Source of the DNA: Kappaphycus alvarezii
Lineage: Eukaryota > Rhodophyta > Florideophyceae > Gigartinales > Solieriaceae
Length of the DNA stretch: 64,000 nt
Direction of reading: 5' to 3'
NCBI GenBank assembly: GCA_002205965.3
Contig: NADL03000699.1
Span: forward strand, 1,550,001 to 1,614,000
Position 1 is the first letter of the stretch, and every line of letters begins with the position of its first letter. The notes beneath the pieces are model-generated. The model did no database searches. It was not told the origin of the DNA and was given only the letters and a program-made list of their open reading frames with translations. A program made the position numbers and the translations under genes. Shown piece after piece: positions 3,730 to 64,000 of this stretch.

Positions 3730-3743
3730 CGCCCTCCCGCTCA
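3730..3743 (-). promoter_or_regulatory. Polypurine tract
   Basis: Read on the minus strand, the bases immediately before the 3' LTR are a purine-rich run (gagcgggagggcg). This is the expected position and composition of the plus-strand DNA primer of an LTR retrotransposon. Confidence 0.65.
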
Positions 3744-3762
3744 AGACGAACGTCCCGGCTCG

Positions 3763-4179
3763 TCACTGCTCTTGTTGTTCTTGTGGGAGTTCTATCCATT
3801 CATCAGGGAGAGTATAGGGTTCACTATAAGGATATGGTAGTAGCTCATTTCCAATATGATGAGAGAGTGTGTACCGTGCGATGACCGGCTCATCTCCTTG
3901 GTCAAGAGTTTCGTAGATTCGGCGTATGGTTTCATAGTGTTCTCTAATGAGCTCCTCCCGTTTCACTTCTCCAAACCTTCCAAATGTGAGGTAATAAACG
4001 TAGTATGCAAACTTTTCTGGCAACGGGTCCAGAAACGGGTATCTGAAGGAGAAAAAAACTCGCAACATAAGGACTGAGTCCTCACGAGTAAGGTGCGCCC
4101 CGTGAATGGTCTGGAAGCACATGCAAATACTAATTGCAAAAAAGGAAATTACTTCTGCTTCTCGTGGGTCCTCTGTCAT
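3763..4179 (-). CDS. Accessory domain copy 2 of the Ty3 element, unknown function
   Basis: This 138-residue reading frame lies between the end of the polyprotein and the 3' LTR. It is homologous to the tail of the polyprotein just upstream. Both share ICxCFxT, an acidic ED pair, RVxFSF, a GRxG turn, IRxxY and LxPYPxxEPY near the end. The pair looks like a tandem duplication of a ~130-residue domain that has since diverged strongly. I do not recognise the fold and see no membrane segment, signal peptide or zinc site. Being at the env position of a recently moved element suggests it is used, but nothing here shows an envelope protein. Confidence 0.6.
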   Translation of the reverse strand: MTEDPREAEVISFFAISICMCFQTIHGAHLTREDSVLMLRVFFSFRYPFLDPLPEKFAYYVYYLTFGRFGEVKREELIREHYETIRRIYETLDQGDEPVIARYTLSHHIGNELLPYPYSEPYTLPDEWIELPQEQQEQ

Positions 4180-4217
4180 TTCGCGAAGCCAACGTCTAAT
4201 TGGTAGCCGTCCAATAA

Positions 4218-7511: not shown

Positions 7512-7680
7512 TGAGGCGGGGCTGGAAGGTGCTGTACTTTTTCTTGAATTTCTCCAATTTGGCGCTGGTCCTTTTCTTGATCCTCACCCTCCAAATTTTG
7601 AAGGACCTCTTCCGGCGTGCTCACATCTTCAGATATGGAATTCGATATATTCCTGTTTTCCTTGCAATTGTAATCTTCTT

Positions 7681-8277
7681 TCATGCCCGAATTCCGTCCT
7701 TTGATTCGATATTATCGCAAAAAGAAACACATTCAGGTGTCAAACCTACCCTAGAATTCCATTCTTCATCTGTTTCAAACCCAGAATCATAATCGTCCCA
7801 TGTCATGTTCATTGTCCCCCGAGCGTACCCTTTCTCACTTCCGAAAGTGTTAGTTGGTTCGGAATCTTCGCTGTCATAGCTAGAAGTGAAATCTTCACTG
7901 TCCGTCTCTCTTAGATCTTCCGGATGTGTGCTTTTGTCGAAATCCAGGGGCATCTTCACGTTTCTGCCGTCAACATTAACTGAAACGATTTGGTTGCCCA
8001 AGTCAATGCAGGTCCCTAGTCTTTCCATGGTAGGACAGCCAATGATTGCATCGAAAGGGAGCTCCGGCATGACGAGAAAGTCTACATCAACTTTAGAGTC
8101 CCCAAAGAACACGGAAACCTTGTTAACAGTGCCCATGCATTTTGAGACGGTTCCATCCGCCACAGTTATTCTTCGAGTAGTTGGAATAATTTCGAGACCT
8201 AAATCTGTCACCAAAGTTTCTGAGATAAGGTTTGGAACAGCGCCCGAATCGAAAAGAGCTTGGGTTTGCATTCCCAA
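7681..8277 (-). CDS. Ty3/gypsy aspartic protease region
   Basis: The region encodes an aspartic protease with ALFDSGAVPNLIS (the D-S-G active site), then a hydrophobic ADG loop and FDAIIGCPTMERLG, the usual ILG-like second motif of retropepsins. It matures the Gag-Pol polyprotein. It lies between gag and RT, as expected. An acidic Asp/Glu/Ser-rich tail separates it from RT. Confidence 0.85.
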   Translation of the reverse strand: MGMQTQALFDSGAVPNLISETLVTDLGLEIIPTTRRITVADGTVSKCMGTVNKVSVFFGDSKVDVDFLVMPELPFDAIIGCPTMERLGTCIDLGNQIVSVNVDGRNVKMPLDFDKSTHPEDLRETDSEDFTSSYDSEDSEPTNTFGSEKGYARGTMNMTWDDYDSGFETDEEWNSRVGLTPECVSFCDNIESKDGIRA

Positions 8278-8485
8278 TACTTTGACTGGTACTAGTTTAA
8301 GACGTCTTGGTGCTGTCGAGGCCGATTGAAGAAACAGTTTCTTACCCTTAGCGGACTTATTAGACCTGATAATTTTTTTGAGTTCTTTCTCGCATCCTCT
8401 GCGTCGCCCCTCAAAAGTTGACCAAACGTTATCCCAGTTGGGGCCGATGCAAGCTCAGCCACCAAATTGTACTTCTTCACATATT

Positions 8486-9688
8486 CTAGTACGTCCTTCG
8501 GGATACTCTTAAATTTCTTACTCTTTCTCGTCTTCTTGGCCGAAGTGTTTCCCACCCTGGAACAACTTGATCAAGCCTCTTGGTTCGAGGAGGTACAGGT
8601 GCTGGGATATGCTCCAGCATTCCATAATCTAGCCTAGGTTTTTTCGACAAAACGTTCCCTTCCCCATCCCTTTTTGTCACATTAACTTGACTGATTTCTT
8701 CAGCGATGGATACATTACCGGCATCCGCCAACCTTTGATCCTTCCTGTTTTGTAAGATTTTCATCTCTGGTCCTGACTCACTCCTCGCGTCCGATAAATT
8801 TGCTCTTCTGTTGTCTTTAGACCAGCAGTTACTTTCATGATGCCCGTAACGACCGCACTTTCCACAACGAGTGTTTCTATGTGGATTATCAGGACACCTA
8901 TTTGCAAAGTGTCCAGGCTTGTGACAGTAGGAACAGACTTCTGCGGCCTTGGGGGCCCCAGACTGGTTCTTCTTAATGGTAAGAGTAAGGCTTTCCAACT
9001 GCGAGGTTATCATGTCAAGTCGATTATCGAATCGGGTTTCCAACCTTTCTTCCAAGTTTTTGACATCGCTCCTGACTGATTCCAATGCTGCTGCGCTAGT
9101 AGCTGGCCTTTGATAATTCTTTTCAGGATGCACGATCGGCATAGATGTACGGGTTTCCCTCGGTATTTCACTTAGTGACTGAAACGTCTCCGAATTTTTG
9201 ACAAATTCTACTATGGTACCCTTCAGTTCATTAAAAGTGTGAGGGCCCTTGATGAGGAGGAAATCGGAGAGCCGCTTATCCCCCATCGCCGCCTTACGCA
9301 GCATTCCGTACTTGGCTTGGGCGTTGAACCCAGCCTTTTCATAGAGATCACACAAGTATACCAATGAGCTTAACAAATCGTCGAAGTTGAGCCGGGCCTC
9401 TATGGCGGTACGAATCATCTCATCTGGTTCTACCTGCTTAGCATATTCTTTCACAAGCCACTCACATACCTCACCGAAGTTACGCCCATTCCCGTTAAGA
9501 GACCACCCGTTGATAAACTTGGCCTTATATTTGTGCTTTGCGTCACCATGAAGATAGGCGAAGATACTTTCGGCCTTCTCTTCATCGCTCTTCTCACGCA
9601 TCACAACGTTGACATATGTATAGAGAAACTCCTCAACGTCTTCATTCTTGCCCCCTGTGAACGTTATACGAGCAGCGTTGAGATCCAT
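8486..9688 (-). CDS. Ty3/gypsy Gag with two zinc knuckles
   Basis: The 400-residue protein starts MDLNAARITFTGGKNEDVEEF, cut here to its first part: a capsid-like helical region with the FTGGKNEDVEEF block seen in Ty3 capsids (residues 9-20), a middle region, then two CCHC knuckles, CSYCHKPGHFANRC and CGKCGRYGHHESNC, which bind the genomic RNA. A basic, Pro-rich tail follows. The ATG at 9688 lies about 70 bases inside the primer-site end of the 5' LTR leader, so the leader is short. Confidence 0.9.
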   Translation of the reverse strand: MDLNAARITFTGGKNEDVEEFLYTYVNVVMREKSDEEKAESIFAYLHGDAKHKYKAKFINGWSLNGNGRNFGEVCEWLVKEYAKQVEPDEMIRTAIEARLNFDDLLSSLVYLCDLYEKAGFNAQAKYGMLRKAAMGDKRLSDFLLIKGPHTFNELKGTIVEFVKNSETFQSLSEIPRETRTSMPIVHPEKNYQRPATSAAALESVRSDVKNLEERLETRFDNRLDMITSQLESLTLTIKKNQSGAPKAAEVCSYCHKPGHFANRCPDNPHRNTRCGKCGRYGHHESNCWSKDNRRANLSDARSESGPEMKILQNRKDQRLADAGNVSIAEEISQVNVTKRDGEGNVLSKKPRLDYGMLEHIPAPVPPRTKRLDQVVPGWETLRPRRRERVRNLRVSRRTY

Positions 9689-9756
9689 GATTACAGAAAA
9701 GAATCCCCTCGAATGGTTCCCTAAGACTGCTCAACTCGAATACCTCGGGTGCAACC

Positions 9757-9774
9757 CCCTCCACAAGAGTACCA
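9757..9774 (-). promoter_or_regulatory. Primer-binding site
   Basis: On the minus strand, two bases after the 5' LTR, comes TGGTACTCTTGTGGAGGG. The opening TGG is the complement of a tRNA CCA end, and the following bases would pair with an acceptor stem ending CAAGAGT-A-CCA. I cannot name the tRNA from the window. Confidence 0.6.
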
Positions 9775-9776
9775 AA

Positions 9777-10496
9777 TGATAGGGGTAAATCGTCGGGAGA
9801 AGAGATACTTAGAACCAACTACCCCAAGACGGAGGTGTTGCGAGCGACAAAAGTGCTACCGTGGTATAGTTGAACAAATAAAAAGGAGTGTATATGGGAG
9901 AGAGTTGAGAGGGCTACAAGCAAGTATAAAAGGGGCAGGGTCTACCACTGATGCTCTGCGACCAGCTTAGGAAAAAGTTTTCTAGGGTCTGAAGTTGACT
10001 CTCAACTTCCTACTACTCGGAGCTTGACCTGAAGTTGTCTGCCAACTTGCTTGACCTCTCAAGGAGGAAGCACTTTACTCAGCTTATATAGACCTTTCGG
10101 CTAATCCTAAAGTCTCAATCAAACATACTAAATACCATAAAACGCATTCACGGGAATCGTGTGAACCAGAGAGACCATTAGAAGATATTTCCTCAAGGTA
10201 AATATCTAGGTGCCATACCCATGCCAGCCACCCATCGGCCAGGGGTGGGAATTGATGTGGCCATTATATAGACCTTTCAGAGTCACTCGTAGTATCACCC
10301 ACAACCTAGAACTGTACTGACATCCACTATGACAGCGTGTCCTAAAATAAAAAATCAACCGATGAATTTGCCACACTCACCCAAATTAAAAATATCTTGC
10401 AAATTCAAAAACTGTAAAAATATCTTCCCAGTTCCAATACTGTATACAATTATGGTCCTCATCTAAATTTTTTCGTGTGCGAATTTGCGCACATCA
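9777..10496 (-). repeat. 5' LTR of the Ty3 element
   Basis: This is the 720 bp partner of 3011-3729. By eye it is identical except for one extra A in a short A-run about 107 bases in. It carries the same two GGTCTATATAA core promoter motifs at 10083-10097 and 10263-10277, read on the minus strand. It is followed by the right target duplication gttac at 10497-10501. Confidence 0.95.
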
Positions 10497-10999: not shown

Positions 11000-11440
11000 G
11001 TCCTGCAACGAATTCTCCGAAGCCATCGCTGGGCACAGCACGGTAACTACACCAGTCCATGCAGCGAGCAGGCACCCACCACAGCTCAGTCCCGTAAGTT
11101 GCCAGCATAGAAAAACTAGTGTTCCTCTCTCTGGCCGTCACAGCTCCACTCTAGTGCCATAACAGCTCCCCATAGACGTCGTCGGATTTTGGTAAACATG
11201 GGTGCCTTCAAAGCATGAGTTAGATTACGCCTCACGTTGCGACAGTGACAGGAGTGGGGTTCTCTGTATCACATTGAAGTGAACGGAAGACTTCATCACT
11301 GGCGGAAGGAAAAGTGAGACGAATTAGAGCAGAGCCAGAAAATGCCTCCGAAAATACTGTCAAGAGAGAAAGGGGGAAAGGTTTGGGTGTTTTACTCTTG
11401 GAAGATATATCCGATCTAGAGAGAAAGTGAAGGTATTCTC
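11000..11440. other. No gene; fragment of the 25 kb inverted-repeat unit
   Basis: The stretch has no supported gene. Bases 11361-11420 (ggtttgggtgttttactctt and following) match both arms of the inverted repeat at 24.94-25.63 kb. That places the unit downstream of two separate family 2 LINE 3' remnants, so it is plausibly part of that LINE's 3' end. Confidence 0.5.
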
Positions 11441-12770
11441 CTTACACACAGGAATTCTTTCTCCTAATGTTTCTCTTTACACTTTCTTGTTTCTTTTACG
11501 CGACGAAAATCCTGTTCCGTTTTACTCTTTTTCTCTCTTCATATGCAACTATCTCCCTCTTTGGCAGAGATTTTTTTCGTCTTCTTGGATTATTTGAATT
11601 TCTTCAACTTTAGACATCTCTTTTTCTATAATCAAGATTTCTTCACGTAATTTTCGCGAGAAGTCATCCTTTCAAAGGTGATTTTCACGAATTCCGACTC
11701 GTAAGAATAATTTACGCATATTTTGTGATCCAGCAGACCCGCCAATCTGAACCTTTTAAGGCTATTTACACCTGTGGGATTGGGGCTAAAATTTATCCAC
11801 GGCCCTTCTAATAACAACCACTCGACAATTTCCACTCCGTTGCTAGCCAAAATGCACAAACTTCTCATTTCTAAATCCAGCTGTCCTGGCCAAATGGCCA
11901 TCTCCCTCTATATGTTTCGGGCCGAACCGACGTAGAGGACTATCCCAGTCTACATACAAGAAAGCGCCTGACGGAGCTTGCAGCCCGTCATCTGGTATAA
12001 ATCGCAGCACAGGACGGGGTGGGGGGACTCGGAAGAGGGGAATGCTAAGGCAGAGGAGTGCGTCACGGAGTGGGTGACTCCGGAACTGGTCTATATTACA
12101 AGAGAGAAAGAAGGCGAAGAAAAGTCTTGAGATGAAATGCAGGAGGCCGAGGAGTCTGAGGATGAATAAGGAGACTTCGAATCGGTTCATATGGAAAGGT
12201 AAGGAATGAATTGGATGGATCATGTGGTCTCGACCACGGAAGGGCGTCAGGTGAGCTGGATTCATTGCATGAGGAGATAGGCAATCTTGAATTAATCACA
12301 AATACGTGTGGGGACTACATGGCTACTTATGATGCCTTAAGGTAAGTGCTCGATTATGATCTAGAAGACAAAGATTTTGAGGAACAGTTTCGTTCAGTTT
12401 CTGTCAAGTATTTTTTTCCAAATTAGCTGCTTCTTCATGTAGTCTTTTCATGCATTTTTTTGCTCATTTAGTAGTTTTATCGAGATTTTAATTTGGAGAA
12501 AGCATATAAAAGTTTAATAAATTTCTTTCTTCAAGAGAGGGAAGGCAAGTTGGCAGTCAAATTCGAACATAGAATCATCGCTCGGCTCTCTAGCCTCTAA
12601 GCGAGTTGGTAGAGCTTGCCCCATTAGTATTGGTTAGTAGAGCGATAAAATTTCTTTTACGTCCGTTCCTCGCTTTTGTCCGTTGAATTGTACTGTAGCA
12701 CTTTCGTCGCACGCAAAACTCTCATCTTGGGTAGTTTGCGGTCCCCTTTTCCGTTGAAGATATTTTCAGT
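11440..12770 (+). mobile_element. Gene-bearing LTR-like repeat, copy A (old, broken)
   Basis: This is a heavily decayed copy of the repeat family seen at 14.4, 46.2, 49.9 and 63.1 kb. A recognisable acidic reading (EWVTPELVYITREKE, then EEAEESEDE-like text) and a CGDYMATYDAL equivalent of the family's CGDCLGGMDIL motif lie at about 12000-12345. The 3' LTR-like part spans about 12540-12760, including a TTGTCCGTTGAA and gtagcactttcgtcgc block homologous to 15710-15780. Both ends are uncertain and no target duplication is visible. It is the oldest copy in the window, with many breaks. Confidence 0.6.
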
Positions 12771-14049
12771 CGTCAAACATCTTTGCGCACCGAATCGCAA
12801 AATCAATATTCTTTGATCGTTGAAATTTTGTCTCAAATATTCAAAAATAAGTTATCCACAAAAGCCTTTAATACATTTATGCAACTTTATCTACGTTCCA
12901 TCGAGTTTAATGTAAATATTGTTGCTAGATGTATGGAATATTCCATTCTTGGCGTTACTATTTTGTGGTGGGCTTTTTGGGTAGATTTGTGGTTTTTGAA
13001 CTACCGATGAAATTGACTTAGGTCATTATAACTTAGAATACATTTACGTAGCTATCGATGCTTTCAGTATTTCTAGAGGCGAGCGTAATGATTATTAGTC
13101 TGCTGTAGAATAGCTGGCTGAGGACTTTTAAATCCCACACCGCTCCCGAACGGAAACTTGTATCTGCCCATTTGTTTTCAACGGTCTGCTTTGATCTTTT
13201 GTTAATGAGATGAACTCTGAATATTTTAAAAAAATTCTGCGAGGCGCTTGGGAGCAAGCAAGATTTCAGAAGCTTATTTCTTCCGTTTTTATAGGCGATA
13301 ATTGGAAACCGTGAACGAAACAGATAATAAGTCCAGCGGCTGTCTGCGTTGATCATAAATCGTCAAATCAAGTCTCGTCTGTGCATTGGCTAGGAATAGT
13401 TGAATCTAGTATTTTCACAGGGCACAGATCGACAGTAGAAAAGAACGATGGAAAGGAACGTATAGAAGTGTTACTTCGGAACGGTAAGTGGAGCTACTTC
13501 CAATGATTTCTCTCCTTTTTGTTCTGAAAGCTGAAGTTTTGCATGAAGCGAATCTCGATGAGCAGGCAGATTATGCTTTATTTTACGCGGACGTGGACTT
13601 GAGTTCTTTTTGATTTCGATTCTTGTTTGAGAGACCTTGATTGGATGGTCCGCCCGCATTTGAGCTGAAAGATGTCATTTAGTCCTTAGTAATATCAAAA
13701 AATCGGACATCAGGATGGTCAGGGAGCCTTTACATTTTTTTGGCATTGAGACTTACTTTTCCTTCCATTTCAGAAATTATACTGGGACTCGAAACAACTT
13801 AAGTGTTAGAAGTGATGTCATGTGCAAATATTTTAATAACATTCAATCAGTATGAATGTATACGAGAGGGACCTGGATAGAAATAATTAACATTTTTATG
13901 AACTGGGTAAACAAATCCACGAGATGGCTTTATTTATGAAAAGGGAGACGAGATGCAATCCTATTCTTTTTTTTAGGGCTGTTAAACTTGACGATGACTT
14001 TTGGTTGACTCGTGTGAAAAATATTCAGCTGAAATCAATCAGGGACACG
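12771..14049. other. AT-rich stretch, no recognised gene
   Basis: Short open frames (for example 12783-13010 and 13033-13356) show no family resemblance that I can support. The base composition is AT-rich and I see no terminal repeats. It is probably old element debris or intergenic sequence. Confidence 0.4.
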
Positions 14050-14455
14050 CGGACAAGTTTCAAGCCACAGTTATTGGATTTTTTAAGTATATGTATTGAA
14101 ATTTCAGTGGCATGTTCACTGAGATACCAAGTAAACCAATTTGATTGACATCTGATTTTATAAACGGAATGCTTGATGATGAAGAATATATGTTGCTCCC
14201 TCCCCCGGCTTGGATTAGTACTGAACTACGGGTTGATGAAGTATTGCGGTTTAGTAAAGCACTGTATGGGCTGAAAAGAGCACCCAGAACTTGGAATGTG
14301 ACATTTAGAACGTCTGTATGCGAAATGAGATTCTCTTAATTCAAGTCAGATAATTGCATTTAATATCGTGATATTGATACAAAGAGAGTTTATTTGCTAG
14401 CATAAGTTGACTATATTCTCATCACGGTACCGACGACAAGGATTGTGTTGTTACA
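14050..14455 (+). mobile_element. Ty1/copia RT fragment (fossil)
   Basis: Translated text includes QVNQFDVTSDFINGMLDDEE, then ALYGLKRAPRTW and a VDYILIT reading, which are the order and spacing of the copia RT blocks (DVKTAFLNG, LYGLKQAPR, YVDD). Only the RT palm is left. The right end is cut by LTR-like copy B. The fragment is broken and old. Confidence 0.75.
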
Positions 14456-15823
14456 GAAACGGTCTTTTCTGTTGGAGAGCTGTCCTCTCTACAAATTCTG
14501 TCTTTTCTATTTTATCTTTGGGTATTTTGGTCCTTTTTTCAAATAGGAATCTTTTGACTCGTGACTCGCTTCGTCCTCCAAATTAAGTTCCGATATTTTA
14601 TCAAGCAGAGTTTTAATTATTGTCCTAATCGCATGCAAATTCAAAGCTGTGGCATTGCTTCACATTTTTTATTTCGTCCAACGCCGTGAAACTTTTCGAT
14701 TACGTTGCCCTATTTAAAGTCCGAAATCGACGTCGTTGAGGCAAGCCCCCGCCTTCAACTACCCCATCGACTCACCCCTTTTTTTTTACTCTCAACATGA
14801 CCATCCTCCGCCCGTCCCTCACTATCGCCAAGTCATCCCGAGGTCGCCGTCCCCTCAACGCTCTGGCCCTGATGGCAAATGATCCAACCGACTACGATGA
14901 CTACTGTAGAAGAATAGACCGAGAACGGGTTCGGGAGTAGGTCCGCCGCAACTGCTTCGAGCAGGCAGAAGAGGCAGAGGAGGAAGAGAAGGTAGAGGAG
15001 GAGGAGGAAGAGGAGGAAGAGGGGGATGAAGAGGAGGAATGGGTGGACCCGTGGGAGCCACTAGTGTACAACGGTGGGGGAGCTCCCATGGAGAACGAAG
15101 GGGAGACTGAGGGATTAATTGTGATCTCTGACTCTTCTGACGAAGATGAAGGGAAGAGTGAAGAGGAGGACGAGGAGGATGAGGGGGAGGGAGACATGGA
15201 AAGTGCTGGAGTAGTGGGGAGGGGGCCGGAAAGAACGGACCAGGTGGTCCCTACTCTGGAACCGGATGGGGGCATCTTCAGTGGTCTAGATATTTCGCAG
15301 GAGGTAATGGAGAATTCTAAGCCGTTCGCGGATATTTGTGGGGACTGCTTGGGTGGAATGGATATTCTGGGGGAACTGTTTGGCTCTTATCTAGAGGACT
15401 AAGATATCGAGGAAGAAATATAGATATTTATCCTGATAGTATCTTCTTTTGATCTTTCTCGTTCACACGATTCCATTTGATGCATTTTATGGTTCTTAGT
15501 AAGTTTCTTTGAGACTTTAGGGATAGCCAAAAAGTCCATATAAGCTGAGTAAATTGCTTCCTCTTGTGGAGGTCAAGCAAGTTGGCAGACAAGTTCAAGT
15601 CAAGTCCCGAGTAGTAGGAAGTTGAGAGTCATACGCTGGTCGCAGAGCATCAGTGGCAGACCTTGCCCCTTCTATACTTTCTTGTAGCCCTCTCAACTGT
15701 CTTGTTTATCCACTCCTTTTGTCCGTTCAACTATACCACGGTAACACCTTTGTCGCTTGCAACACCTCCTTCTTGGGGTAGTTGGTTCTGAGTATCTCTT
15801 CACCCGACGATTTACGCCTATCA
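14444..15823 (+). mobile_element. Gene-bearing LTR-like repeat, copy B
   Basis: This repeat of about 1.38 kb ends TATCA at 15823. The left end, near a TG at 14444-14446, is approximate. It carries one gene (14797-15402), then a 420 bp 3' portion homologous to the LTR of the Ty3 element at 3011-3430 (reversed), including a core promoter GTCCATATAAG at 15534-15544. It lies between a copia fragment and a LINE endonuclease fragment. The gene has about one break. No clear target duplication can be read. Confidence 0.75.
14797..15402 (+). CDS. Acidic protein of LTR-like repeat, copy B
   Basis: The reading spans about 202 codons. The basic N-terminus (MTILRPSLTIAKSSRGRR) is shared with copies C (MNNLRPSASITKN) and D (MNNLRPLAAINKN). 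The middle is a long Glu/Asp-rich low-complexity stretch containing IVISDSSDEDE, which resembles a SUMO-interacting motif followed by acidic phospho-sites. The C-terminus, QVVPTLEPDGGIFSGLDISQ then ADICGDCLGGMDILGELFG, is the most conserved part across copies. There is no enzyme motif. A nuclear regulatory or chromatin-binding role is conceivable, but only from composition. It carries about one break in this copy. Confidence 0.65.
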
Positions 15824-35799: not shown

Positions 35800-37536
35800 T
35801 TGGGTCCTTTCGAGGTTGAAGCAGTGGAATATCAACGCAAACTCGTGTTCGTTCGAGATCAACCGCATAGCCCAGCGAGGCCGTTTAACTTAGCACAGGT
35901 GAAACCATATCTCACCCCTGAACTTCTCTCACATTCGTTCATGACGGATCTTGACTATGGTCTGGCCTTTTTCCGTTCGCCTTATTCGTTTGATATTATG
36001 GCAACGGAGATCATTAAAGAGCACGACGAAAGGGCCACCAGTACAGAGATGAAAAAAGCCAAGAGAAAAGAAATTCGAGCACTGTTGGAACGCGGTACCT
36101 TTAAGGTTATCCTCAAAGAAGAAATACCCCCAGATGCCAATGTTATCCCTGGACGCTTTGTGTTGGCTATCAAGTCAAAGGTTGATGGGAAGATCAAGTA
36201 TAAGGCCAGGTATGTTATTGGAGGACATAAGGACAAACTAGAGGACCTCATGGTTCATTCTTCCGCCACCCTTCAACCACAGTCGGTGCGATTGTTACTT
36301 GCATTGGCAGCAGCTTTCGGCTGGGATGTTTGGACAGCGGATAAAACTCAGGCCTACCTCCAATCCGCTGAACCATTAGCGCGTCAGGTACTTATCGAGA
36401 AGCCATCCCCGGAGTTCGACCTCGACCCCGAGCATTGCCTTCAGCTTCTACGTCCCCTTTATGGAATTTGTGATGCCGTTGATCTATGGCACGCTACTTT
36501 CGACAAGCATCACCGCCAAGAACTTGACATGACGAAGTTCCGTATGGACCTAGCCTTGTACTATATCCTTGATGGCGGTTTAGTGAAGGGACTAAGTGGT
36601 AACTATGTTGATGATTTACTACGGTGTGGTGACGATGATTTCAAAAGGGTTTCGAACCAAACTAAGGAGCGCTTCGAAATGGCTGATGATGTTCCTCTAC
36701 CGACAGAGTTCATAGGCTTCATTCTCGGTCAAGACAAGAATGGAGACTTTGTCATCGACCAAAGTTCTTACTTAAGGAAACTTGAGTACCTAACGAAGGA
36801 TGCAAGCTTTAAGCAATTCCGATCAATGCGGATGAAACTTGCATTGTTATTTAACTCTCGCCCAGACTGCTTCTTTGAAATTTCGCAAATCGTACAGGTC
36901 ACTGAAATTATTTTCAATGAACAGAAGGGCCTGATCACTCGAAGGATCAACAAGGCAATTATGTACGCTATCGACCATAGAGTTAAACTCAAGATGCCCA
37001 AACTAGATCGGAAATCGCTGAAGATTGTAGGTTTCTCCGACTCCTCTTTCGCGAATAATGCCGACCTGTCCTCGCAGCTTGGATACATAGTTTTCCTTGG
37101 AGATCCAAGTGAAAGAGTCGCACCCATCTCTTTCAAGTCGTACAAGTCACGGCGGGTCACAAGATCAGCGATGTCATCGGAGGTCATCGCATTTAGCGAT
37201 ATGTTTGATGTAGCCATTTCCGTTGCCCAGGAACTTGGAAAGGTGTTAGACAGCCCGATCCCGGTTCAACTTTTCAAGGAAAGCAAAATTCTTTTCGATG
37301 TCATCTCGAAAGGGTCACGCACTTCCGAGAAGCGAACGATGTTAGATATCGCCGCGGCGCGTGAAGGTTTTCGAGATAGAGTGATTTCTGACATCGGTTT
37401 TGTTCGAAGCCACAACAACGTCGCCAATGGTTTGACCCAGGTAATGTCCCAAGCAGTGCTCAGAAACATTATCGAGACAGGCAAAATCGATATCGTGCCA
37501 GATCAGTGGATAATCAGATCTGAAGAGATAACATGA
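35800..37536 (+). CDS. Copia reverse transcriptase and RNase H
   Basis: The long frame of 578 residues shows RT opening text (VIPGRFVLAIKSKVDGKIKY, KARYVIGG), DVWTADKTQAYLQS (first catalytic Asp region), LLRPLYGICDAVDLWHATF and the catalytic NYVDDLL. RNase H follows with FSDSSFANNADLSSQLGYIV, RSAMSSEVIAFSDMFD and SHNNVANGLTQ. The family is Ty1/copia, distinct from the three Ty3-type elements here. Confidence 0.9.
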   Translation: MGPFEVEAVEYQRKLVFVRDQPHSPARPFNLAQVKPYLTPELLSHSFMTDLDYGLAFFRSPYSFDIMATEIIKEHDERATSTEMKKAKRKEIRALLERGTFKVILKEEIPPDANVIPGRFVLAIKSKVDGKIKYKARYVIGGHKDKLEDLMVHSSATLQPQSVRLLLALAAAFGWDVWTADKTQAYLQSAEPLARQVLIEKPSPEFDLDPEHCLQLLRPLYGICDAVDLWHATFDKHHRQELDMTKFRMDLALYYILDGGLVKGLSGNYVDDLLRCGDDDFKRVSNQTKERFEMADDVPLPTEFIGFILGQDKNGDFVIDQSSYLRKLEYLTKDASFKQFRSMRMKLALLFNSRPDCFFEISQIVQVTEIIFNEQKGLITRRINKAIMYAIDHRVKLKMPKLDRKSLKIVGFSDSSFANNADLSSQLGYIVFLGDPSERVAPISFKSYKSRRVTRSAMSSEVIAFSDMFDVAISVAQELGKVLDSPIPVQLFKESKILFDVISKGSRTSEKRTMLDIAAAREGFRDRVISDIGFVRSHNNVANGLTQVMSQAVLRNIIETGKIDIVPDQWIIRSEEIT

Positions 37537-46222: not shown

Positions 46223-47596
46223 TGACAGGGGTAAATCGTCGGAGAAGAGATACTCAGAACCAATTACCCCAAGAAGGAGGTGTCGGGAGCGACAAAATTG
46301 TTACCGTGGTATAGTTGAACGAGCAAAAAGGAGTGGGTAAGGAAGAAAGTTGAGAGGGTCTACCACTGATGTTCTGCAACCAGCGTAGGGAAATTGTTTC
46401 TTGGGTCTGAAGTTGACTCTAAACTTCCTACTACTCGGGACTTTACTTGAAGTCGTCTGTCAACTCGCTTGACCTCTCCATGAGGAAGCAGTTTACTCTG
46501 CTTATATAGACTTTTGGCCATCACTAAAGTCCAAACAAAACTATAGAAGATACCAGGAAATTCATAAAAACACTTTGTGTGGATGATATATTCTAAACAA
46601 AAGATACTTAAGAAACCAACAATCGATATGGTCCTCTTATTTTTCATTCTCTACATCAGATCCAAACAACTCCTCCAAAATATCCATGCTGCCCAAACAG
46701 TCCCCACAAATATCTGCGAACGGCTCATAGCTCTCTATTTCCTCCGGGGAGATATTTAAAATACTAAAGATATCCCCATCTGGTTCCAGCGTCGGCGCCA
46801 CTCGTTCCATACTTTCCAGTCCCGGCCCCACCATTCCAACACTTCCTATGCCTCCCTTTCCCTTATCCTCCTCGTCCTCGTCCTCATCCTCCCCATCATA
46901 CCCCTCATCCTCCTCCTCGTCCTCTTCCTCATCGTTAACCTTGTAGACCAATTTCGGGGCTGCCCACTTCTCGAAGGTCTCTCCAGCTCCCTCCTCGATT
47001 TCCAACTCCTGTCCCTCAGGTACCTCCTCCGCCTCCTCCTCGACGAACAAGCGACGCACGAATTCGATCACCTTTTTTGTTTCTCGGCGTAGGTATTCAT
47101 CACGGTCAGTAGGTCCGAAAGGGAGTAGGGGAATGGAGATTAGGAGGCGGGTGTGGCGATTTTTGGTGATAGAGGCGGAGGGGCGAAGGTTGTTCATTTT
47201 GGTTGTAAATGGAGTGGGGCGGTTGTGGATGGAGGATGGAAGGTGTGAGGGGTAGGGTAGTGTGTGAGGGGGAGGGTAGTGTGTGTATGAGTTGGTGGAT
47301 CTCAAAAAAGTTGGGAAAAATGGGTTTAAGTACAACTTAGAGGCGGACTGGATTCGGTACTAAAAAGTTAAAATCGAAATTGCGGTAGGGCATTTGCGTG
47401 AAATTTCTACATAAGGAGTGAATATGATAAAGATGGTAGATAAAAAACACGTAAAATGCTGATTTGGAGAAGAGGATACAGTATTAAAATATCTAGGGAG
47501 GATGGTAGACAAATTTGGAAAGGAGGGTAAGCGGAGTCAGGGGCGGTATCTTTGTAAGTTTCTGGTCCCATCTGTAGGACCATTTCCTGTGTTACA
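46223..47596 (-). mobile_element. Gene-bearing LTR-like repeat, copy C (looks whole)
   Basis: At 1374 bp with TG...CA ends (minus: TGTAACACAGG to CCCCTGTCA), it is flanked by taagg (46218-46222) and taggg (47597-47601). It carries one intact gene (46637-47197). Its 3' ~380 bp is homologous to the Ty3 LTR at 3011-3430, with core promoter AAAAGTCTATATAAG (minus, 46501-46515). It has no RT, primer site or polypurine tract. It lies inside the LINE, in the same orientation as the LINE, and is an inverted copy of D. Confidence 0.85.
46637..47197 (-). CDS. Acidic protein of LTR-like repeat, copy C (intact)
   Basis: This 186-residue protein is taken from the ATG at 47197, because copies B and D start at the same point (MNNLRP / MTILRP). 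N-terminus: MNNLRPSASITKNRHTRLL, basic. Next comes a helical segment RDEYLRRETKKVIEFVRRLF, then Glu-rich, then KWAAPKLVYKV, then Asp/Glu-rich low complexity. C-terminus: ERVAPTLEPDGDIFSILNIS and FADICGDCLGSMDILEELFG. The two cysteines of ICGDCLG are kept in copies B, C and D and changed to ICRDCVS in E. The acidic middle plus a short hydrophobic C-terminal helix is reminiscent of transcription activators, but the function is unknown. It is the only copy without a visible break. Confidence 0.75.
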   Translation of the reverse strand: MNNLRPSASITKNRHTRLLISIPLLPFGPTDRDEYLRRETKKVIEFVRRLFVEEEAEEVPEGQELEIEEGAGETFEKWAAPKLVYKVNDEEEDEEEDEGYDGEDEDEDEEDKGKGGIGSVGMVGPGLESMERVAPTLEPDGDIFSILNISPEEIESYEPFADICGDCLGSMDILEELFGSDVENEK

Positions 47597-48978
47597 TAGG
47601 GCGCAGAAGATGGGCCAGTTGAGGGAGTGGGGAGGCATCGGTTGAGGTTGCGTTCCAGAGTTGTAACTCTTTCGCGGACCGCCAGTTCAGCAGCGCCACC
47701 AGCAACCTGGGTCGCCTTGGTGCGAACTGCGGCCTTGAACGGTGAGACGACAGCGATGTCACACGAAATGGGGCGCAACGTTGTGCCTTCCGGGGTTGTG
47801 GGGGTTTGTACCAGGATATCGGCGGGCCGAAGCTCAGTACCCGGGACGAGGAGCGGAACCTCGTGCCGAGTATCCAGACCCGTGGCGCCGGTAACGTGTG
47901 TCATAAACTTATAACAGAGCGAGTTATGGCTGTGACGATGGCCGAAACCAGGGCAGCAGAGGTCGGCTGCGTGAACCTCGAGGGTGGCCAAGGGGTGGTA
48001 ACAGTGGTTGCAGTTGAGGGGCATGGAGTCATCACACACTGGCAGTCCGAGGTGACGGCGGAGCATGGTATGCCAGTTTGTGGTGTGCACCTTCGTAGCT
48101 GCCGTGGGTGAGCGAAGAGAAACGCCGCAGCGGGGCTGCGGCGGAACGCTAAGCCCCGGATGCGATGTCGAATGTCGGCGTCGCTATGGGCGGTCGGGTT
48201 TGGGGCATTCGTCCAGGAGCCTTCGTGCCAATGTACCCTTGCTCGCGCTTCTTGCTGCACCCGTTTGAGAAGGGTTAGAGTCCTGGTGGGTGAAGCAGCT
48301 ATAGTTGGAGGGTCTAGAATCGGGAGGTCGACTATCCCGGGGATGGACAGGGCGAAGCAGCGGCGAGAAGGCCCAGCCTGTCGGAGGAGGAAGGATTGAT
48401 CGCCGCGGAAGCGGCCAGAAGCTGTGCACAAGCACGCGGCGTGGCGTTTGCAGAATTCCGCTGCCGTGCGGGCGCAGTATCAATGATGCTGGCAGCGGCA
48501 GCGTCGTGGAGGCACAAGGCGATTATTTCGAAGCCCTGACCTCCGAGGTGCATGGGGAGGCAGACTTGGTCCCAGGCGCGGTCCGTGAGTGCGATGCCGT
48601 GTAACTTTTCATAAAATGACCGTTGAAGGTCATCAAATTTTTCTGCGCAGACTCAGCTAAGCGCGGATCTGAGAGCTTGAATGCATGCGATAGAAGGCAT
48701 GCATAGGCACAGATCCGGTGCATGTGGAACTGGACGCGGGTGTCGTGGACCAGCAGGAGGCGGTCCAGAGTGCGGCAGCACTGGGCGGTCTTGGACCGGA
48801 GAAAACTCTCCGTGAACGTTCTGTTGCCAATGGGGGCCCCGAGAAGCGGACAGCCGTCCCGCGAGCATTCTGTGAGAGGGAATTCCGCTAAGAGGGCTGC
48901 TCGATCCGGAGGCATGACGTGAGGCCAATATATCCGTGTCTTACGTGAGTTGACATGGAAGCAAACCGTGGGGCCATC
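47597..48978 (-). pseudogene. LINE family 1, connection, zinc knuckle and restriction-like endonuclease
   Basis: From right to left: GCPLLGAPIGNRTFTESFLR and LLVHDTRVQFHMHRICAY (the thumb/connection block of this RT family), then HLGLPVCDDSMPLNCNHCYH with a Cys/His knuckle continuing through EVHAADLC. The nuclease follows: HRHSHNSLCYKFM (R-H-N motif), a conserved Glu in RHEVPLL, RPADILVQ (PD motif) and RPISCDIAVVSPF (last Asp). This fold nicks the target site to prime reverse transcription. Several frame changes are present, so the copy is inactive. Confidence 0.75.
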
Positions 48979-49907
48979 TCAGGCGAGGAGCCTGAGCACC
49001 TGACGGATGGCGCCAAGGCTCCCGATGATCGTGCCGTCATCGGCGTACCATTGGCAGATAGCAATGTTGGGGATCTCAGCAACCCGAAGGATGAGGGGTT
49101 GGATGGTTAGCGAGAACAACAACATGCTGGCCGAGTCACCCTGTTGGGTGCCCTGGGCACTTGGTATGACGGTGCAATCCCGGTTCGGGACAACCAATGG
49201 CGGTTGCAGTCGGCCATAGATCATGTTTGCGAAGCGGGCTAGCGAGGGGGCGAGCATTGGTAGGTGGTCCAGCATAGACTGCCGATCATCACGGCTAGAG
49301 GCGTTTTTGGCGTCTATGAGGACCGTAGGGACATTCCGGGTGGCGGAGAAGCGGCGTAGTGTCGTGCGCATGTCGTTGAAAATAGAGTCCAACCCGGCTT
49401 TAACACCGTTGGCCGTCTGATGCGGCGACATAGCCGAGTGTGAATCGACTATTGCGGCCGGAAGCAGTGCCTTCGTCACTATCCTGCGGAGCACAGACCC
49501 GATGGCAATTGGGAGGACCTTGACGGGAGTCGGCTGAAGCGGGAGGAGTGTCGCCGCTGCCACGAGGGGTAGCGCAGCGTCCGGGAGCTCCCCCCGTGTG
49601 AGCCGGGAAACAAGCTGTGTCAGGACACGCAGACCGGTCACGCCGGCTTCAGGACTGACGTGAGTCTTAACCAGGAGGTGAAAACAGCGGGATGGCGTTC
49701 GTTCAAGTCCGGCAGTGGTGTCCCGCGGGACGCCGCGGACCGCGTGTTCCACAGCAGCCTCGGTGATGCACGGGGCGGCGGGAGTCGTTCTTCCGGGAGC
49801 GGCGAGAAAGGGCTCGGCGGGGAAGGGTGCAGATCCCGGAGCCGCTAAATTGTCGCTGGGTCGTCGACGTTGGCGAGCGGGCCGTTTTGGAGGCCGCGCA
49901 TGGCCTT
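48979..49907 (-). pseudogene. LINE family 1, reverse transcriptase
   Basis: The open frame of ~310 residues has TTAGLERTPSRCFHLL (family equivalent of the AGPDG block), VLPIAIGSVLRRIVTKALLP, PHQTANGVKAGLDSIFNDMR, VPTVLIDAKNASSRDDRQSM (motif A, D of IDAKNA), AQGTQQGDSASMLLFSL (motif B, GxxQGD) and CQWYADDGTIIGS (motif C; YADD at 49036-49047). These motifs are all intact. The first ~46 bases of the apparent frame (49908-49953) belong to copy D, not to the LINE. The family is widespread in algae, protists and some invertebrates but has no well used name that I can cite. Confidence 0.8.
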
Positions 49908-51393
49908 TGTAATACAGGAATTGGTCCTCCCTAAAGGGATCAGCAACTGACAACGATCCCGACTCTGAATCCGCTTACTGTCCTTTCCAAATTTGTCTAC
50001 CATCCTCCCTAGATATTTTAATACTGTATCCTCTACTCTAAATCTACTCCAAATCAGCGTTTTACGTCTTTTCCATCCACCTTCTTCATGAAATTAACTC
50101 CCTATGTAGAAATTTCACGCAAATGCCCTACCCTAATTTCGATTTTAACTTTTTAGTACCGAATCCAGTCCACCTCTAAGGTGTACTTAAACCCATTTTA
50201 CCCAACTTTTTTGAGATCCACCAACCCCTACACACACTTCCCTCCCCCTCAAACCCTCCATTATCCATCCAAATCGCCCCACTCCATTTACAAACCACAA
50301 TGAACAACCTTCGCCCCTTAGCCGCCATCAACAAAAATCGCCCCTCTCGCCCCTTTAACGGCCTTGCGCTTCCTGCGTATGGCCCGATGGACGCAGACGA
50401 CTACCGGCGACGCCAGACGAAGAAGAAGATCATAGATTTCGCTCTTCGTCGAAGGTGAGGCAGAAGAAGTCAGTGAGAGTGAGGCGGAGAAGGAAGAGGA
50501 TGAGCTCGGCAAGTCGTTTGAGGTGTGAGTGGCCGGTGATTTAGTTTAGGAGGGAGGCGAGGACGATGACATGGACGACGACGACGATGATGAGGAGTGT
50601 GGGGAGGGGAGTGAGAAAGATGAGGCAGAAGAAGCCAGTGAGGTGGGGCGGGTTCTGAATAATATGGACCAAGTGGTCCCGAATATGGAAACGGATGGGG
50701 CATCTTCAATGGTCGAGATATTTCGCAGGAGGCAATGGAGAATACTAAGTCGTTCGCGGATATTTGTGGGGATTGTTTGGGTGGAAAGGATATTTTGAGG
50801 GAACCTTTTGTCTCTGATCTAGAGGACTAAGATATTAAGGACGAATTTAGATATTTATCCTGATAGGACGTTTTGCTAGTCATTCTCGTTCACACGATTC
50901 TAGTTGGTGCATTTTATGGTTCTTAGTATGTTTCTTTGAGACTTTAGGGTTAGCCAAAAAGTCTATATAAGCTGAGTAAACTGCTACCTCTTGTGGAGGT
51001 CAAGCAAGCAGGCAGACAACTTCAAAAGACATACTCCAGAAGTAACGAAGTTGGTAGTCATCTTCGGGCCCAAAATTTATAAACGGCTCTCAAGCCTCGA
51101 AGCTAGGTAGGAGAGCCTGCTCTTTTTAGGATTGTTCGAGGATCCACTAAGCCTTCTTCTACTTCAGCCTATTGTATTTGCCTTGCGACGTACAGGGAGA
51201 CAGATCCGTCGTTCGCAAGCCCAAGGTACAGCCTGCCCCTTCCGGACAAAGTCGGTTTCCATAGATTTCTCGTCCGTATACAGCACATTTTGTTCCCAAA
51301 AATACCTTACCATAGCACTTTAGTCGCTCGAAGAACCTCCGTTTTTGGATAGTGGGCGTCGGATATCTCTCTTACGCCGACTTTCTGCTAACA
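49908..51393 (+). mobile_element. Gene-bearing LTR-like repeat, copy D (broken)
   Basis: At 1486 bp with TG...CA ends (TGTAATACAGG to CTAACA), it is flanked by gcctt (49903-49907) and gcatt (51394-51398), a 4/5 match. The gene region is 50300-50830, broken with about two breaks. The core promoter AAAAGTCTATATAAG is at 50957-50971, and the 3' LTR-like part is more diverged than in copies B and C. It lies in the LINE 5' of RT, head-to-head with copy C. Confidence 0.8.
50300..50830 (+). pseudogene. Acidic protein gene of LTR-like repeat, copy D (fossil)
   Basis: It starts MNNLRPLAAINKNRPSRPF and has a RRRQTKKKIIDFALRR helix matching copy C, an Asp/Glu-rich middle (MDDDDDDEECGEGSEKDEAE), QVVPNMETDG, and an ADICGDCLGGKDIL-like end readable just before 50830. 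It has about two breaks. Confidence 0.65.
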
Positions 51394-51815
51394 GCATTAC
51401 CGCATCGCGCATCAGCGCAAAGGGCCTCTGCACGACGGGCGCACCCGGTGTCGCCGGGAACTGTTGGAACACACAGCGTGTTTTCTTTCCAGGATTCAAG
51501 CGGAGCTTGATAAGCTGCGAGAGCTTCGGCCCAGAGTCCCCCCAGTGTGAGCCCGTGTGCGCACGACGGAGGCGTTCTCGGAGGGCGATCCGTTGCCTGT
51601 TGGGGTCCCGCCATCCGCGCTCTCCCAGAAGACAGCGACGGAGGACAGCCGTGGGCAGCATGTGGAGGTGCAGGAATGCTTGTTGAGTAGTGTCTTCACC
51701 AAGGGCATTCGCCGCAGCTTTCACCAACTTGATAAACAGCAGGATTAATTGGGTCAGGCAGGGCGCGGGATATCTCGGAAGATATACGTCTCGCGGTAGA
51801 TTGTTGAGAGGATTT
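51394..51815 (-). pseudogene. LINE family 1, segment N-terminal to RT
   Basis: Minus-strand text LILLFIKLVKAAANALGEDT, FLHLHMLPTAVLRRCLLGER and VFQQFPATPGAPVVQRPF corresponds to the helical region that precedes RT in this LINE family (a leucine-rich FAALLALPK-like block followed by a charged region). It is bounded by copy D on the left and the Ty3 element on the right. The frame continues across the Ty3 site into 56572 and beyond. Confidence 0.6.
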
Positions 51816-52230
51816 TGTTGGCGTGTCTCGGGAGAGGTATCGATGGAAACAGGAATTGATTACGTAATCACAGTAAAAGGATTCAGGATAAGGTAGAGCA
51901 AGGTAAATTCAGGATAGAATATCGTGGAGATGGAAGGCAAAAGCCAAGAACGGGTAGCACGCTAGAGCGATCGCGCTCTAGCGGTCCCCCAACTGCAATC
52001 GGCAGTTGGAAGTTTTATTCACCGAGGATCTGACCCCAAGAGCTTGAGCTCCCGGAGCTCGGGCTGGTCCGAGGGGTGATTCGCAGAATCCCCCGTTCGG
52101 CCAGTAAGAAAGTCCCATCATAGATACTTGGGTATCGGATGGATAAGAAAAGCTAAGGCTAATCTATATGTTCAGGATGATGCAACTTGAGTCCGTAACT
52201 TTGCAGCTAAGTTGTGCACACTCGACCGCA
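51816..52230 (-). repeat. 3' LTR of the Ty3 element at 52-56 kb
   Basis: The 415 bp LTR contains three strong hairpins: GCTAGAGCG / CGCTCTAGC around a 4-base loop (about 51961-51983), CCAACTGC / GCAGTTGG, and a GAGCT-rich stem at about 52035-52060. They are shared with the other LTR, so would be present in the transcript if within R. Confidence 0.85.
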
Positions 52231-55730: not shown

Positions 55731-55979
55731 TAGAGCTGGTTCGAGGCAGTTGCGAATGCTCGCTGGCTTGACCTGTCTTGCGGCATCGCGAGAGCGGTTA
55801 AATTCCTTAACCTTCTCTTCGTAACATCGATATTCAACTTAGACCTCAATGAGGCTAGGTTGGGTAACACTCTTGAGTGTGGGCGGATTGATTGTCGAGA
55901 TAACACTGTAGTTCGACATCCTGAAAATTTTCACTCGAGTCTCTCTCTCAAGACAACTACCCTTTGGACCGAAGCGCTT

Positions 55980-56566
55980 TGTTGGCGTGTCTCGGGAGAG
56001 GTATCGATGGAAAGAGGAATAGGTTACGTAATCACAGTAAAAGGATTCAGGATAAGGTAGAGCAAGGTAAATTCAGGATAGAATATCGTGGAGATGGAAG
56101 GCAAAAGCCAAGAACGGGTAGCACGCTAGAGCGATCGCGCTCTAGCGGTCCCCCAACTGCAATCGGCAGTTGGAAGTTTTATTCACCGAGGATCTGACCC
56201 CAAGAGCTTGAGCTCCCGGAGCTCGGGCTGGTCCGAGGGGTGATTCGCAGAATCTCCCGTTCGGCCAGTAAGAAAGTCCCATCATAGATACTTGGGTATC
56301 GGATGGATAAGAAAAGCTAAGGCTAATCTATACTGATCTGTAGAAACAGTATCGTACATATGCGCATGGGCGCATACTATGGTTTCATGATGCCACGTGA
56401 GGGCGTTCCCTGGCGGCCCTTGAGAGCCTTGAATTGTCAGATCAAAAAATTATGTAGAAATTGCTAACCTGAAAATTCAGGTTAGTTGTCCTGGATATTC
56501 AGGATGTTCAGGATGATGCAACTTGAGTCCGTAACTTTGCAGCTAAGTTGTGCACACTCGACCACA
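55980..56566 (-). repeat. 5' LTR of the Ty3 element at 52-56 kb
   Basis: The 587 bp partner of 51816-52230 carries an extra block (about 56330-56500) with further inverted repeats (AACCTGAA / TTCAGGTT). Followed by the target duplication gattt at 56567-56571. Confidence 0.88.
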
Positions 56567-62668: not shown

Positions 62669-63085
62669 TGGCTATAGCATATTTCAGGTTGGCGCCGTAG
62701 ACAGTGACTACTAGTATCGTACTGGGTTATTATACTGATTCAGTTCTGTATTAATGGTTCTAGTAAGTTTAAAAAGTTACATATTGTGATATACTGTATA
62801 TAAAGCACAAAATGTTCTTCAAATGATCAACATAATAGGTTTGTATATAAATTTAACAAATTTCGTATATAATTGTACATGGTGATTATTTTAATTCAAG
62901 GGAATGTGGAAATATGAGTTTTTCAAATGTAATTATTTCTAAGTATCAATGTTCAAATTAAAGCCCCACAAGCAGCGTGCAATAGAGTTCTAATACTTTA
63001 AAAACGAATGGCGCCATTAACATTGAACCTCAGTTAAATGCAACAACCAATTCCGGGAATCAAACAGGAACCTGATTGATTTCTG

Positions 63086-64000
63086 GTACTATTAGGGATA
63101 AAGTTGCAGAGGATGATATCATCGGAATCAATTATTCAAAGATGGAGGTGTGGAGCGACAATAGTGATACTGATGTATCGTGAAAAAAAGTTGGGGCCAA
63201 GAGGATGAAGTTGCGTATGGAAGAAGCAGGTTCTACCACTGGTGCTCACGGGCTGTTGTTGCAGAGACTTTCTCTAGATGGTAAGTTGGCTTTCAACCTC
63301 TGAACTACCTGGGTCTGGACTTGAAGCTATCTTTCAAATATCTTGCCGTAACCTGGAGGAAGCGTTTTTCTCAGCTTTAATAAGATTTTTTGCTAGCCTT
63401 AAAGTCTCAAACAAACGTACTGAATACATAGTAAAATGTGTTATAGGGGAATAAAATGGACAGTAAAGACTAAAATTAGATAAGTTAAAGATAAAAATCT
63501 TTATTTCTCTCTAAAATCTTAGTCTTGGAGATTAAAGCCAAGAATTCGTCTAAAATATCCATACTGCTCACGCAATCCCTGCAAATTAATTCGAACGGCC
63601 CGTCATGATGGATAGCCTCCTTGATCATATCAAGAACCTCCACTATCTCCTTGAGATCCTGTCCTTCCACCTCATTTCCACCAGTAGTGCCCGAAACGAC
63701 GATTGATCCCTACCTCTCCTCTCCGCACTACAATGCGGCGCCCCGCCGTTTTTAACCAGTGGCTAACATAAGTCCCCTAAACTCTCCCCATCTTCTGATG
63801 CGTCTAAATATGCCTCAGCTTCCTCCGGCTCATCTACCTCCTCTTCCTCAACATCCTCTTCTGCCTCTTCGAAGCATTTAAAGAGGACAAGCTCTCAAAC
63901 CCTTTCCGAGTCCATCCTCCCATGGTAGTCTTTCTAGTCGCCTGGTCCATTGGCCATCAATGCCAGGTCTTTGAGGGGACAGTGAGCTCTGGATGCCTTG
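63086..64000 (-). mobile_element. Gene-bearing LTR-like repeat, copy E (broken, runs off window)
   Basis: From about 63086 the plus strand is a diverged copy of the LTR-like part (ggataaagttgcagaggatg, then gatggaggtgtggagcgaca, aagtctcaaacaaacgtact). The gene lies from 63485 to beyond the window end: C-terminus PFELICRDCVSSMDILDEFL, acidic middle text with EEEEVDEPEEAEAYL, and KDLALMANGPGD, matching LNALALMANDPTD of copy B, near 63950. The N-terminus is outside the window. It is broken, with several breaks. Confidence 0.75.

Follow-up and report, generated by a model that had tools for sequence, protein, structure and literature searches.

A U3 gene within the LTRs of a high-copy Ty3/gypsy family probably explains a coding repeat in Kappaphycus alvarezii

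A repeat of about 1.4 kb that carries a reading frame for an acidic protein occurs five times in a 64,000-nucleotide stretch of the Kappaphycus alvarezii genome (contig NADL03000699.1, positions 1,550,001 to 1,614,000; hereafter, the window). The locus raises two questions: whether such a repeat is an element in its own right, mobilized in trans by a Ty3 element as a sequence-only reading had proposed, or a part of something longer, and whether its reading frame is a gene at all. We favor, with a probability of about 85%, the reading that the repeats are the LTRs of a high-copy Ty3/gypsy family with a complete gene in U3.

The five copies differ widely in preservation. Copy C (46223-47596, minus strand), a solo LTR of a gene-bearing Ty3/gypsy subtype, is 1374 bp long with TG...CA ends and 5-base flanks (TAAGG/TAGGG) that match by eye at four of five positions. 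It alone among the five has an intact ORF, as had been noted. Copy D (49908-51393, plus) is an LTR in which frameshifts and stops disrupt the gene; its flanks (GCCTT/GCATT) likewise match by eye at four of five bases. Copy B (14449-15823, plus) represents a second gene-bearing subtype, with TG...CA ends, one in-frame TAG seen by eye in its gene (14798-15403, plus), and flanks (TGTGT/ACGTC) that by eye do not match. Copy E (63061-64000, minus) is a diverged gene-bearing LTR, recognizable but cut by the window edge. Copy A (11380-12830, plus) is a degenerate remnant of a gene-bearing LTR with uncertain boundaries; the copy C query missed it at E 1e-3 in the window self-search, and it was recognized by short LTR matches (73% over 113 bases) and a tblastn match at E = 0.005. 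Copies B, C, and D are clear; of the TG...CA ends formerly ascribed to all five copies, those of C and B were confirmed, and the 4/5 flanks described before are those of C and D but not of B. Similarly, the C-terminus thought to be common to all copies is well kept as ADICGDCLGSMDILEELFG in copy C and ADICGDCLGGMDILGELFG in copy B but is altered in D and E and barely recognizable in A. None of the five copies was seen joined to reverse transcriptase (RT), integrase, or any other internal part, in line with the earlier description, and inspection of the ~1.4-kb unit revealed neither a primer site nor a purine tract.

Copies C and D interrupt an RT-like gene without a Pfam match but with a cysteine/histidine-rich stretch, which is found from 46222 downward and at 47407-49953 (minus), and also from 15824 onward (plus), where by eye it apparently adjoins copy B. 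Its ORF at 47407-48090 (minus) is broken by copy C, and by eye the frame apparently resumes from 46222 downward. This gene is possibly another retroelement family serving as an insertion target. The window holds further repeats: a Ty1/copia-type reverse transcriptase (RVT_2, E 7.7e-21) at 35800-37536 (plus) belongs to another LTR retroelement, and a 355-bp direct repeat, 98.9% identical and 4.2 kb apart (51814-52168 and 55978-56332), possibly represents the LTRs of yet another element.

A complete gene-free Ty3/gypsy element lies at 3011-10496 on the minus strand and is bounded by the same LTR family as the copies. Its 5' LTR (9777-10496, minus; 720 bp) and 3' LTR (3011-3729, minus; 719 bp) are 99.86% identical, with GTTAC on both outer sides. 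Between them, all on the minus strand, are a 400-aa gag with two CCHC motifs seen by eye and no Pfam match (8486-9688), an aspartic protease (7681-8277), and a pol comprising RT, RNase H, and integrase (H2C2 plus rve; 4218-7511). The Pfam order in this pol (RVT_1, RNase H, H2C2, rve) is that of Ty3/gypsy elements, and its closest relatives are proteins at ~52% identity. The element is young and has spread recently, with a gag-pol related to that of gene-bearing elements. Over its first 317 bases, copy C shows 79% identity to the plus-strand start of the 720-bp LTR, which in the sense of transcription is the R/U5 side. Downstream of the integrase, an extra domain is present in two similar copies (FAYYVYYLTFGRFG and FVEVIYHYSIGRYG), at 3763-4179 (minus) and in the C-terminal part of 4218-7511 (minus). 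This domain, which has no Pfam match at 3763-4179 and is also matched at the 3' ends L029, L030, L032, and L034, is a second accessory module of the element.

In the genome (336 Mb, 884 contigs), the copy C DNA query returned at least 43 matches, i.e., itself, 40 at 81-88% identity, and two short ones, a lower bound given that 40 of 5224 first-look candidates were scored. Twenty of these matches were taken with ~4.3 kb on each side. At two of the 20 places (L014 and L020), a C-type LTR is immediately followed by a primer-site-like sequence and then by gag, protease, and pol, the last three of which are by piece 83-89%, 78-90%, and 72-84% identical, respectively, to those of the window family. 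At the 3' ends of these elements (L029 and L030), the LTR is of a different subtype than at the 5' end, with 73-77% identity over about half the length of the LTRs. The two elements are thus recombinant or rearranged, which suggests recombination between subfamilies. The L029 LTR, ~1340 bp overall, follows a purine-rich stretch and consists of the TGATATGCGC start as in the 720-bp LTR, TATTTAAA, the ATG and the (broken) gene, and then the element's TATA box, R/U5, and the CA end. The 720-bp gene-free LTR aligns to both ends of this LTR, without the gene between.

Same-strand neighbors came from searching the genome with the protein, which gave at least 182 matches from 150 scored out of 9793 candidates. 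C549 has LTRs of ~1475 bp with TG...CA ends, 99.5% identical and with GATTG on both sides, that enclose a primer-site-like sequence, gag, and a purine-rich tract; its gene bears the same frameshift near the N-terminal start in both LTRs and is open beyond. In C575, the LTRs (~1480 bp, 99.6% identical) have GAGCT on both sides, a target duplication to be read with the last bases of the 3' LTR missing, so that two of the five bases could be LTR. The C575 gene, of 186 aa, is intact and identical in both LTRs, and the start of pol is 98% identical to that of the window element, whereas gag is missing, which implies that help in trans occurs within the family. The C628 pair was rejected as an LTR pair, since a segmental duplication that takes in flanking sequence accounts for it (99.8% over 1849 bp). 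The primer-site-like sequence TGGTACTCTTGTGG stands two bases after the LTR, and a purine-rich stretch precedes the 3' LTR; no tRNA gene as primer source was found in the window or in L001-L028.

Since Ty3/gypsy elements bounded on either side by gene-bearing LTRs exist in the genome, the window copies are apparently best read as solo LTRs of this Ty3/gypsy family; they look LTR-like, as was observed earlier, because they are LTRs. Among 14 C-type copies, the target duplication is exact in one (L019), matches at four of five bases in eight (three of which share one flank), and is absent from five, a group that includes L014 and L020, which are not solo.

As a sample independent of similarity to copy C, we used a 17-base gene-end motif encoding DICGDC, with up to one mismatch, which occurs at 2999 places in the genome versus 3 for a reversed control. 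The LTR core TCTATATAAGCTGAGTAAA is found at 5900 places versus 6 for its reversed control. Pair spacing was derived from the first 100 places listed, all of them exact matches, of the 2999 and of the 5900, and the comparison of the two motifs used the 53 gene places on contigs C1-C29. Among the first 100 of the 2999 gene-motif places, 31 fall in 17 same-strand pairs 4-12 kb apart, 15 of these at 7.0-7.8 kb, and there are three opposite-strand pairs at 4-12 kb, none at 7.0-7.8 kb. Eight of the 17 same-strand pairs were aligned. Each of the eight is a pair of LTRs with 95.0-99.4% identity and 0-13 substitutions over the stretch compared, which for L044/L045 is limited to 768 bp, and in all eight the start of gag follows the upstream LTR. 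The long element with the unit as both LTRs, whose search had been recommended, is therefore represented by C549, C575, and these eight pairs.

Spacing also separates gene-bearing from gene-free elements. At least 33 of the 95 LTR cores listed on contigs C1-C29 are preceded by the exact gene motif at a distance of 197-206 bp; the count is a minimum, since inexact motifs did not enter it. Among the places listed, 23 same-strand LTR-core pairs lie 5.5-9 kb apart, with the motif in both members of eight, in neither of 13, and in one of two. Spacing is 7551-7619 bp in five of the eight pairs with the motif in both (7120, 7119, and 6526 in the rest) and 6611-6952 bp in 11 of the 13 pairs with the motif in neither (6151 and 7701 in the rest), again among the places listed; the gene-free element of the window, with 6766, resembles the motif-less pairs. 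The pair classes are shifted by ~0.8 kb, not far from the 0.6-0.76 kb by which their LTRs differ in length. At G000:C6:282838-304204, four gene motifs on one strand are spaced 7121, 7121, and 7124, apparently a tandem array of the form LTR-internal-LTR-internal-LTR-internal-LTR.

The gene itself lies inside U3, upstream of the element's TATA box (a position like that of MMTV sag). In copy C, the intact frame for the 186-aa acidic protein occupies 46637-47197 on the minus strand (46640-47197 plus the stop), with a TATA-like box, TACTTAAA, by eye ~135 nt upstream of the ATG (47325-47332, minus); in C575, C606, L029, and copy B, TATTTAAA stands by eye ~84-117 nt upstream of the ATG. Downstream of the gene, ~200 bp after the gene-end motif, comes the TATA box of the element's own putative promoter, TATATAAG (46501-46508, minus), and R plus U5 extend from there to 46223. 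The order along the LTR is thus TG, an upstream region with the TATA-like box, ATG...stop, the element's TATA box, R/U5, and CA. That the LTR carries its own gene, as the sequence-only reading held, is borne out by the presence of this gene in both LTRs of full-length elements; the case in which the C-terminus would be part of an ordinary gag or pol does not apply, since the ORF lies outside both. With the gene in both LTRs, each round of reverse transcription makes two copies of it. The expected start of the genomic RNA lies past TATATAAG, which in the 5' LTR is downstream of the gene; the gene would thus be transcribed either toward the 3' end of the genomic RNA or by a promoter of its own. 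A candidate promoter of its own is favored by the TATA-like box, which lies ~84-135 nt from the ATG even in subtypes with otherwise dissimilar upstream sequences. In many C-type copies (e.g., L010 4228-4284), the LTR opens with two or three units of the 28-bp sequence TGTAATACAGGAAATGGTCCTCCCCTCG, which duplicates the TG end as well; copy C has a single unit. The 5' flank GTCCTCCCCTCG, shared between copies, was considered a sign of a longer repeat and rejected as part of this tandem repeat.

The copy C protein has 54 D+E and 18 K+R among its 186 aa, and the four intact copies range from 186 to 204 aa with 29-36% D+E. Conservation is concentrated in an N-terminal block (MxNLRPS), internal blocks (GPTDxDxYxRRxTKK-IEF-R and EPDGDxFSxLxIS), and a C-terminal block (EPFxxICGDCL-MDIL-ELFGSD-EN-K). 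No Pfam family matched at E 0.001, superantigens included; the best of the weak Pfam matches (E up to 1) is to an unrelated family at E 0.021, and PDB gave two weak matches, at E 0.018 and 0.69, both overlapping the acidic stretch. The AlphaFold model, which draws helices at 32-55 and between 151 and 177, is unusable at a mean pLDDT of 35, and neither Pfam nor AlphaFold revealed a DNA-binding domain or a usable fold. In a database of 5.8 billion proteins, the copy C sequence alone found no relative (1911 candidates scored), and a four-sequence profile found one, P0121, at E = 3.5e-12 (8000 candidates scored). This 141-aa protein, whose longest contig has 1708 bases, matches the IEFVRRLF region and the C-terminal block at ~37% identity, so a diverged version of the protein exists in at least one other source. 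There were no relatives among viral contigs in 600 pattern matches.

Most copies of the gene are broken. Only two (C and L014) of the 22 full copies aligned (C, D, and 20 from the genome) are intact, a partial 23rd is also broken, and the eight pairs contribute one intact ORF in 16 LTRs. LTR partners differ mostly by one-base indels, many in single-base runs (e.g., 0 substitutions and 6 indels), which suggests assembly errors; as these indels look like residual long-read error, the number of broken genes may be overstated. Among the matches listed, 51 of the 118 rows spanning at least 169 residues have by eye no internal stop; of the next 32, 31 match only about residues 1-112 and one matches 88-186. 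L037, a row matching only about residues 1-112, has a longer acidic stretch and the same C-terminus.

Codon-position counts show a third-position excess that, in four comparisons with copy C, is also found in noncoding DNA (C-D, 1.43; C-L029, 1.43; C-L025b, 1.77; C-L028b, 2.00), and the gene end of L030 (62 codons) shows no such excess. In view of this noncoding excess, dN/dS (NG86, with stop and gap codons skipped and frames used unmended) was run with wrong-frame and noncoding controls. Nine C-type copies, a set that excludes L030, have a mean of 0.70 over 36 pairs, as expected of dead copies. Means between groups are 0.25-0.42 where computable, which two group comparisons with E were not. 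For the four intact genes, the values with the acidic stretch left out and included are 0.17/0.17 (C575-C606), 0.24/0.24 (C-C606), 0.24/0.26 (C-C575), 0.26/0.25 (L014-C575), and 0.33/0.31 (L014-C606); C-L014, of the same subtype, gives 0.84/0.87, i.e., no selection in this pair alone. Across the five between-subtype pairs, the true frame yields 0.21-0.31 versus 0.96-1.80 when the gene is read in either wrong frame; noncoding parts of the LTR, treated as if they were codons, yield 0.41-1.14. Synonymous divergence is 0.59-0.85 in the gene, similar to the upstream side, versus 0.14-0.27 on the R/U5 side; the R/U5 side is thus constrained or exchanged between subtypes. The gene was under purifying selection between subtypes, selected while active and then decaying. 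The outcome named earlier as adverse, a dN/dS of about 1 with no intact copies elsewhere, contrasts with between-subtype values well below 1 and uninterrupted copies at other places. The repeats are very probably LTRs and their gene very probably selected, the two claims taken jointly.

The original proposal, a separate non-autonomous LTR-like element with its own gene that a Ty3 element mobilizes in trans, would agree with the five window copies being devoid of an internal region and with C575, whose missing gag shows that some gene-bearing elements need help. Solo LTRs arise by ordinary LTR recombination anyway, the unit shows no primer site or purine tract, and it is the terminal repeat of elements with gag and pol; the proposal was rejected once gene-bearing LTRs were found flanking gag-pol, and we now hold it very improbable. 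Its Ty3 link survives, as does a need for help in the case of C575, but the separate element does not. Just as little credit goes to the idea that the ORF is a by-product copied along with the LTR, either a former gene or a chance frame rich in GAG/GAA repeats. The broken state of 20 of 22 full copies and 15 of 16 pair LTRs, the activity of gene-free LTRs, the simple-repeat nature of the acidic stretch, and the C-L014 dN/dS of 0.84-0.87 would all fit it. Nevertheless, between-subtype dN/dS outside the acidic stretch is 0.17-0.42, and not so in the other two frames, 51 of 118 rows among the matches listed have no stop, and the distant homologue P0121 keeps both conserved ends; a chance ORF was rejected on the wrong-frame and noncoding controls.

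In the favored reading of LTRs with a complete, selected U3 gene, a short mRNA would start from the gene's own TATA-like box and end at the LTR polyadenylation site, so that a solo LTR alone would be a self-contained gene. The protein would act in trans for the element family, most likely by regulating LTR transcription, and copies with a broken or missing gene would be helped by others. An element can do without the gene in cis, as shown by the young gene-free element of the window and by C549, which spread although both of its LTRs bear the frameshift. A trans-acting regulator of LTR transcription is our tentative first guess, held at less than even odds, given the position beside the LTR promoter, the acidity, and the C-terminal hydrophobic-acidic stretch, which in this acidic and apparently disordered protein is conserved and resembles an activation domain; with no DNA-binding domain or usable fold found, the guess draws on composition and position. 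Its main rival, which we judge unlikely but to be taken seriously, is an accessory protein against host silencing or restriction. Suppressors of this kind are often acidic, disordered, and lineage-restricted, and absence of the gene from some active lineages is expected of a trans-acting factor; no Pfam match was significant. Quite improbable is a protein that limits copy number or assembly through Gag or genomic RNA, like a trans-acting inhibitor. The dose from solo LTRs would rise with copy number, there are thousands of motif copies, and the MMTV U3 is reported, in the part of the source available, to code for the negative factor Naf besides Sag (PMC9412291), but within its own lineage the element would be under selection to lose such an inhibitor, unless the host were protected.

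A more far-reaching possibility, which we regard as speculative and somewhat doubtful, is that the LTR is a self-contained selected gene with promoter, ORF, and terminator, that each retrotransposition or solo LTR sows a shared trans-acting regulator, and that gene-free subfamilies live off this pool. If so, an LTR retrotransposon would have up to thousands of copies of a regulatory gene scattered as a common pool. A selected gene in U3 in itself makes solo LTRs, usually seen as dead scars, potential protein-coding genes, and the family offers a system for studying the sharing of a trans-acting factor among scattered copies and the coexistence of lineages with and without the gene.

Cassandra TRIM elements have a 5S RNA gene in the LTR, a gene module with a promoter as here, but they are non-autonomous and the gene specifies an RNA. 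Foamy virus Tas, HTLV Tax, and lentiviral Nef are products of accessory or transactivator genes that lie close to the 3' LTR or overlap it; we liken them by position, as small accessory proteins at the element's 3' end, some of which act on the LTR, but these genes are internal or only overlap U3, unlike the gene described here. Additional lineage-specific ORFs in gag-pol elements, as here, are known from bdelloid rotifer ORF3 families, in which the extra ORF is counted after gag and pol (PMC5408684), and from rice Retrosat2, whose ORF0 lies upstream of gag-pol (PMC3485330); the available parts of these reports do not describe either ORF inside the LTR, in contrast to our gene. A literature search in narrow phrasing, which is weak evidence, found no LTR retrotransposon with a selected gene in its LTR, and PMC8775202 and PMC11117352, in the parts available, are not about genes in LTRs.

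LTRs are ordinarily noncoding, and a known exception is MMTV, with most of sag in U3 (PMC4667437). The U3 ORF of MMTV encodes Sag and Naf, a negative regulator of transcription, and Sag is driven by the U3 promoter P2 (PMC9412291). MMTV is a mouse betaretrovirus with env, whereas here a Ty3/gypsy retrotransposon present in thousands of copies carries the gene, directly preceded by a TATA-like box, and the Pfam search showed no relation between sag and the acidic protein. Judging from the available parts of these sources, MMTV sag is the closest precedent: it is expressed from a promoter in U3, the MMTV LTR is conserved because it is coding, and the gene lies mostly in U3 and hence in both LTRs, as in the K. 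alvarezii family.
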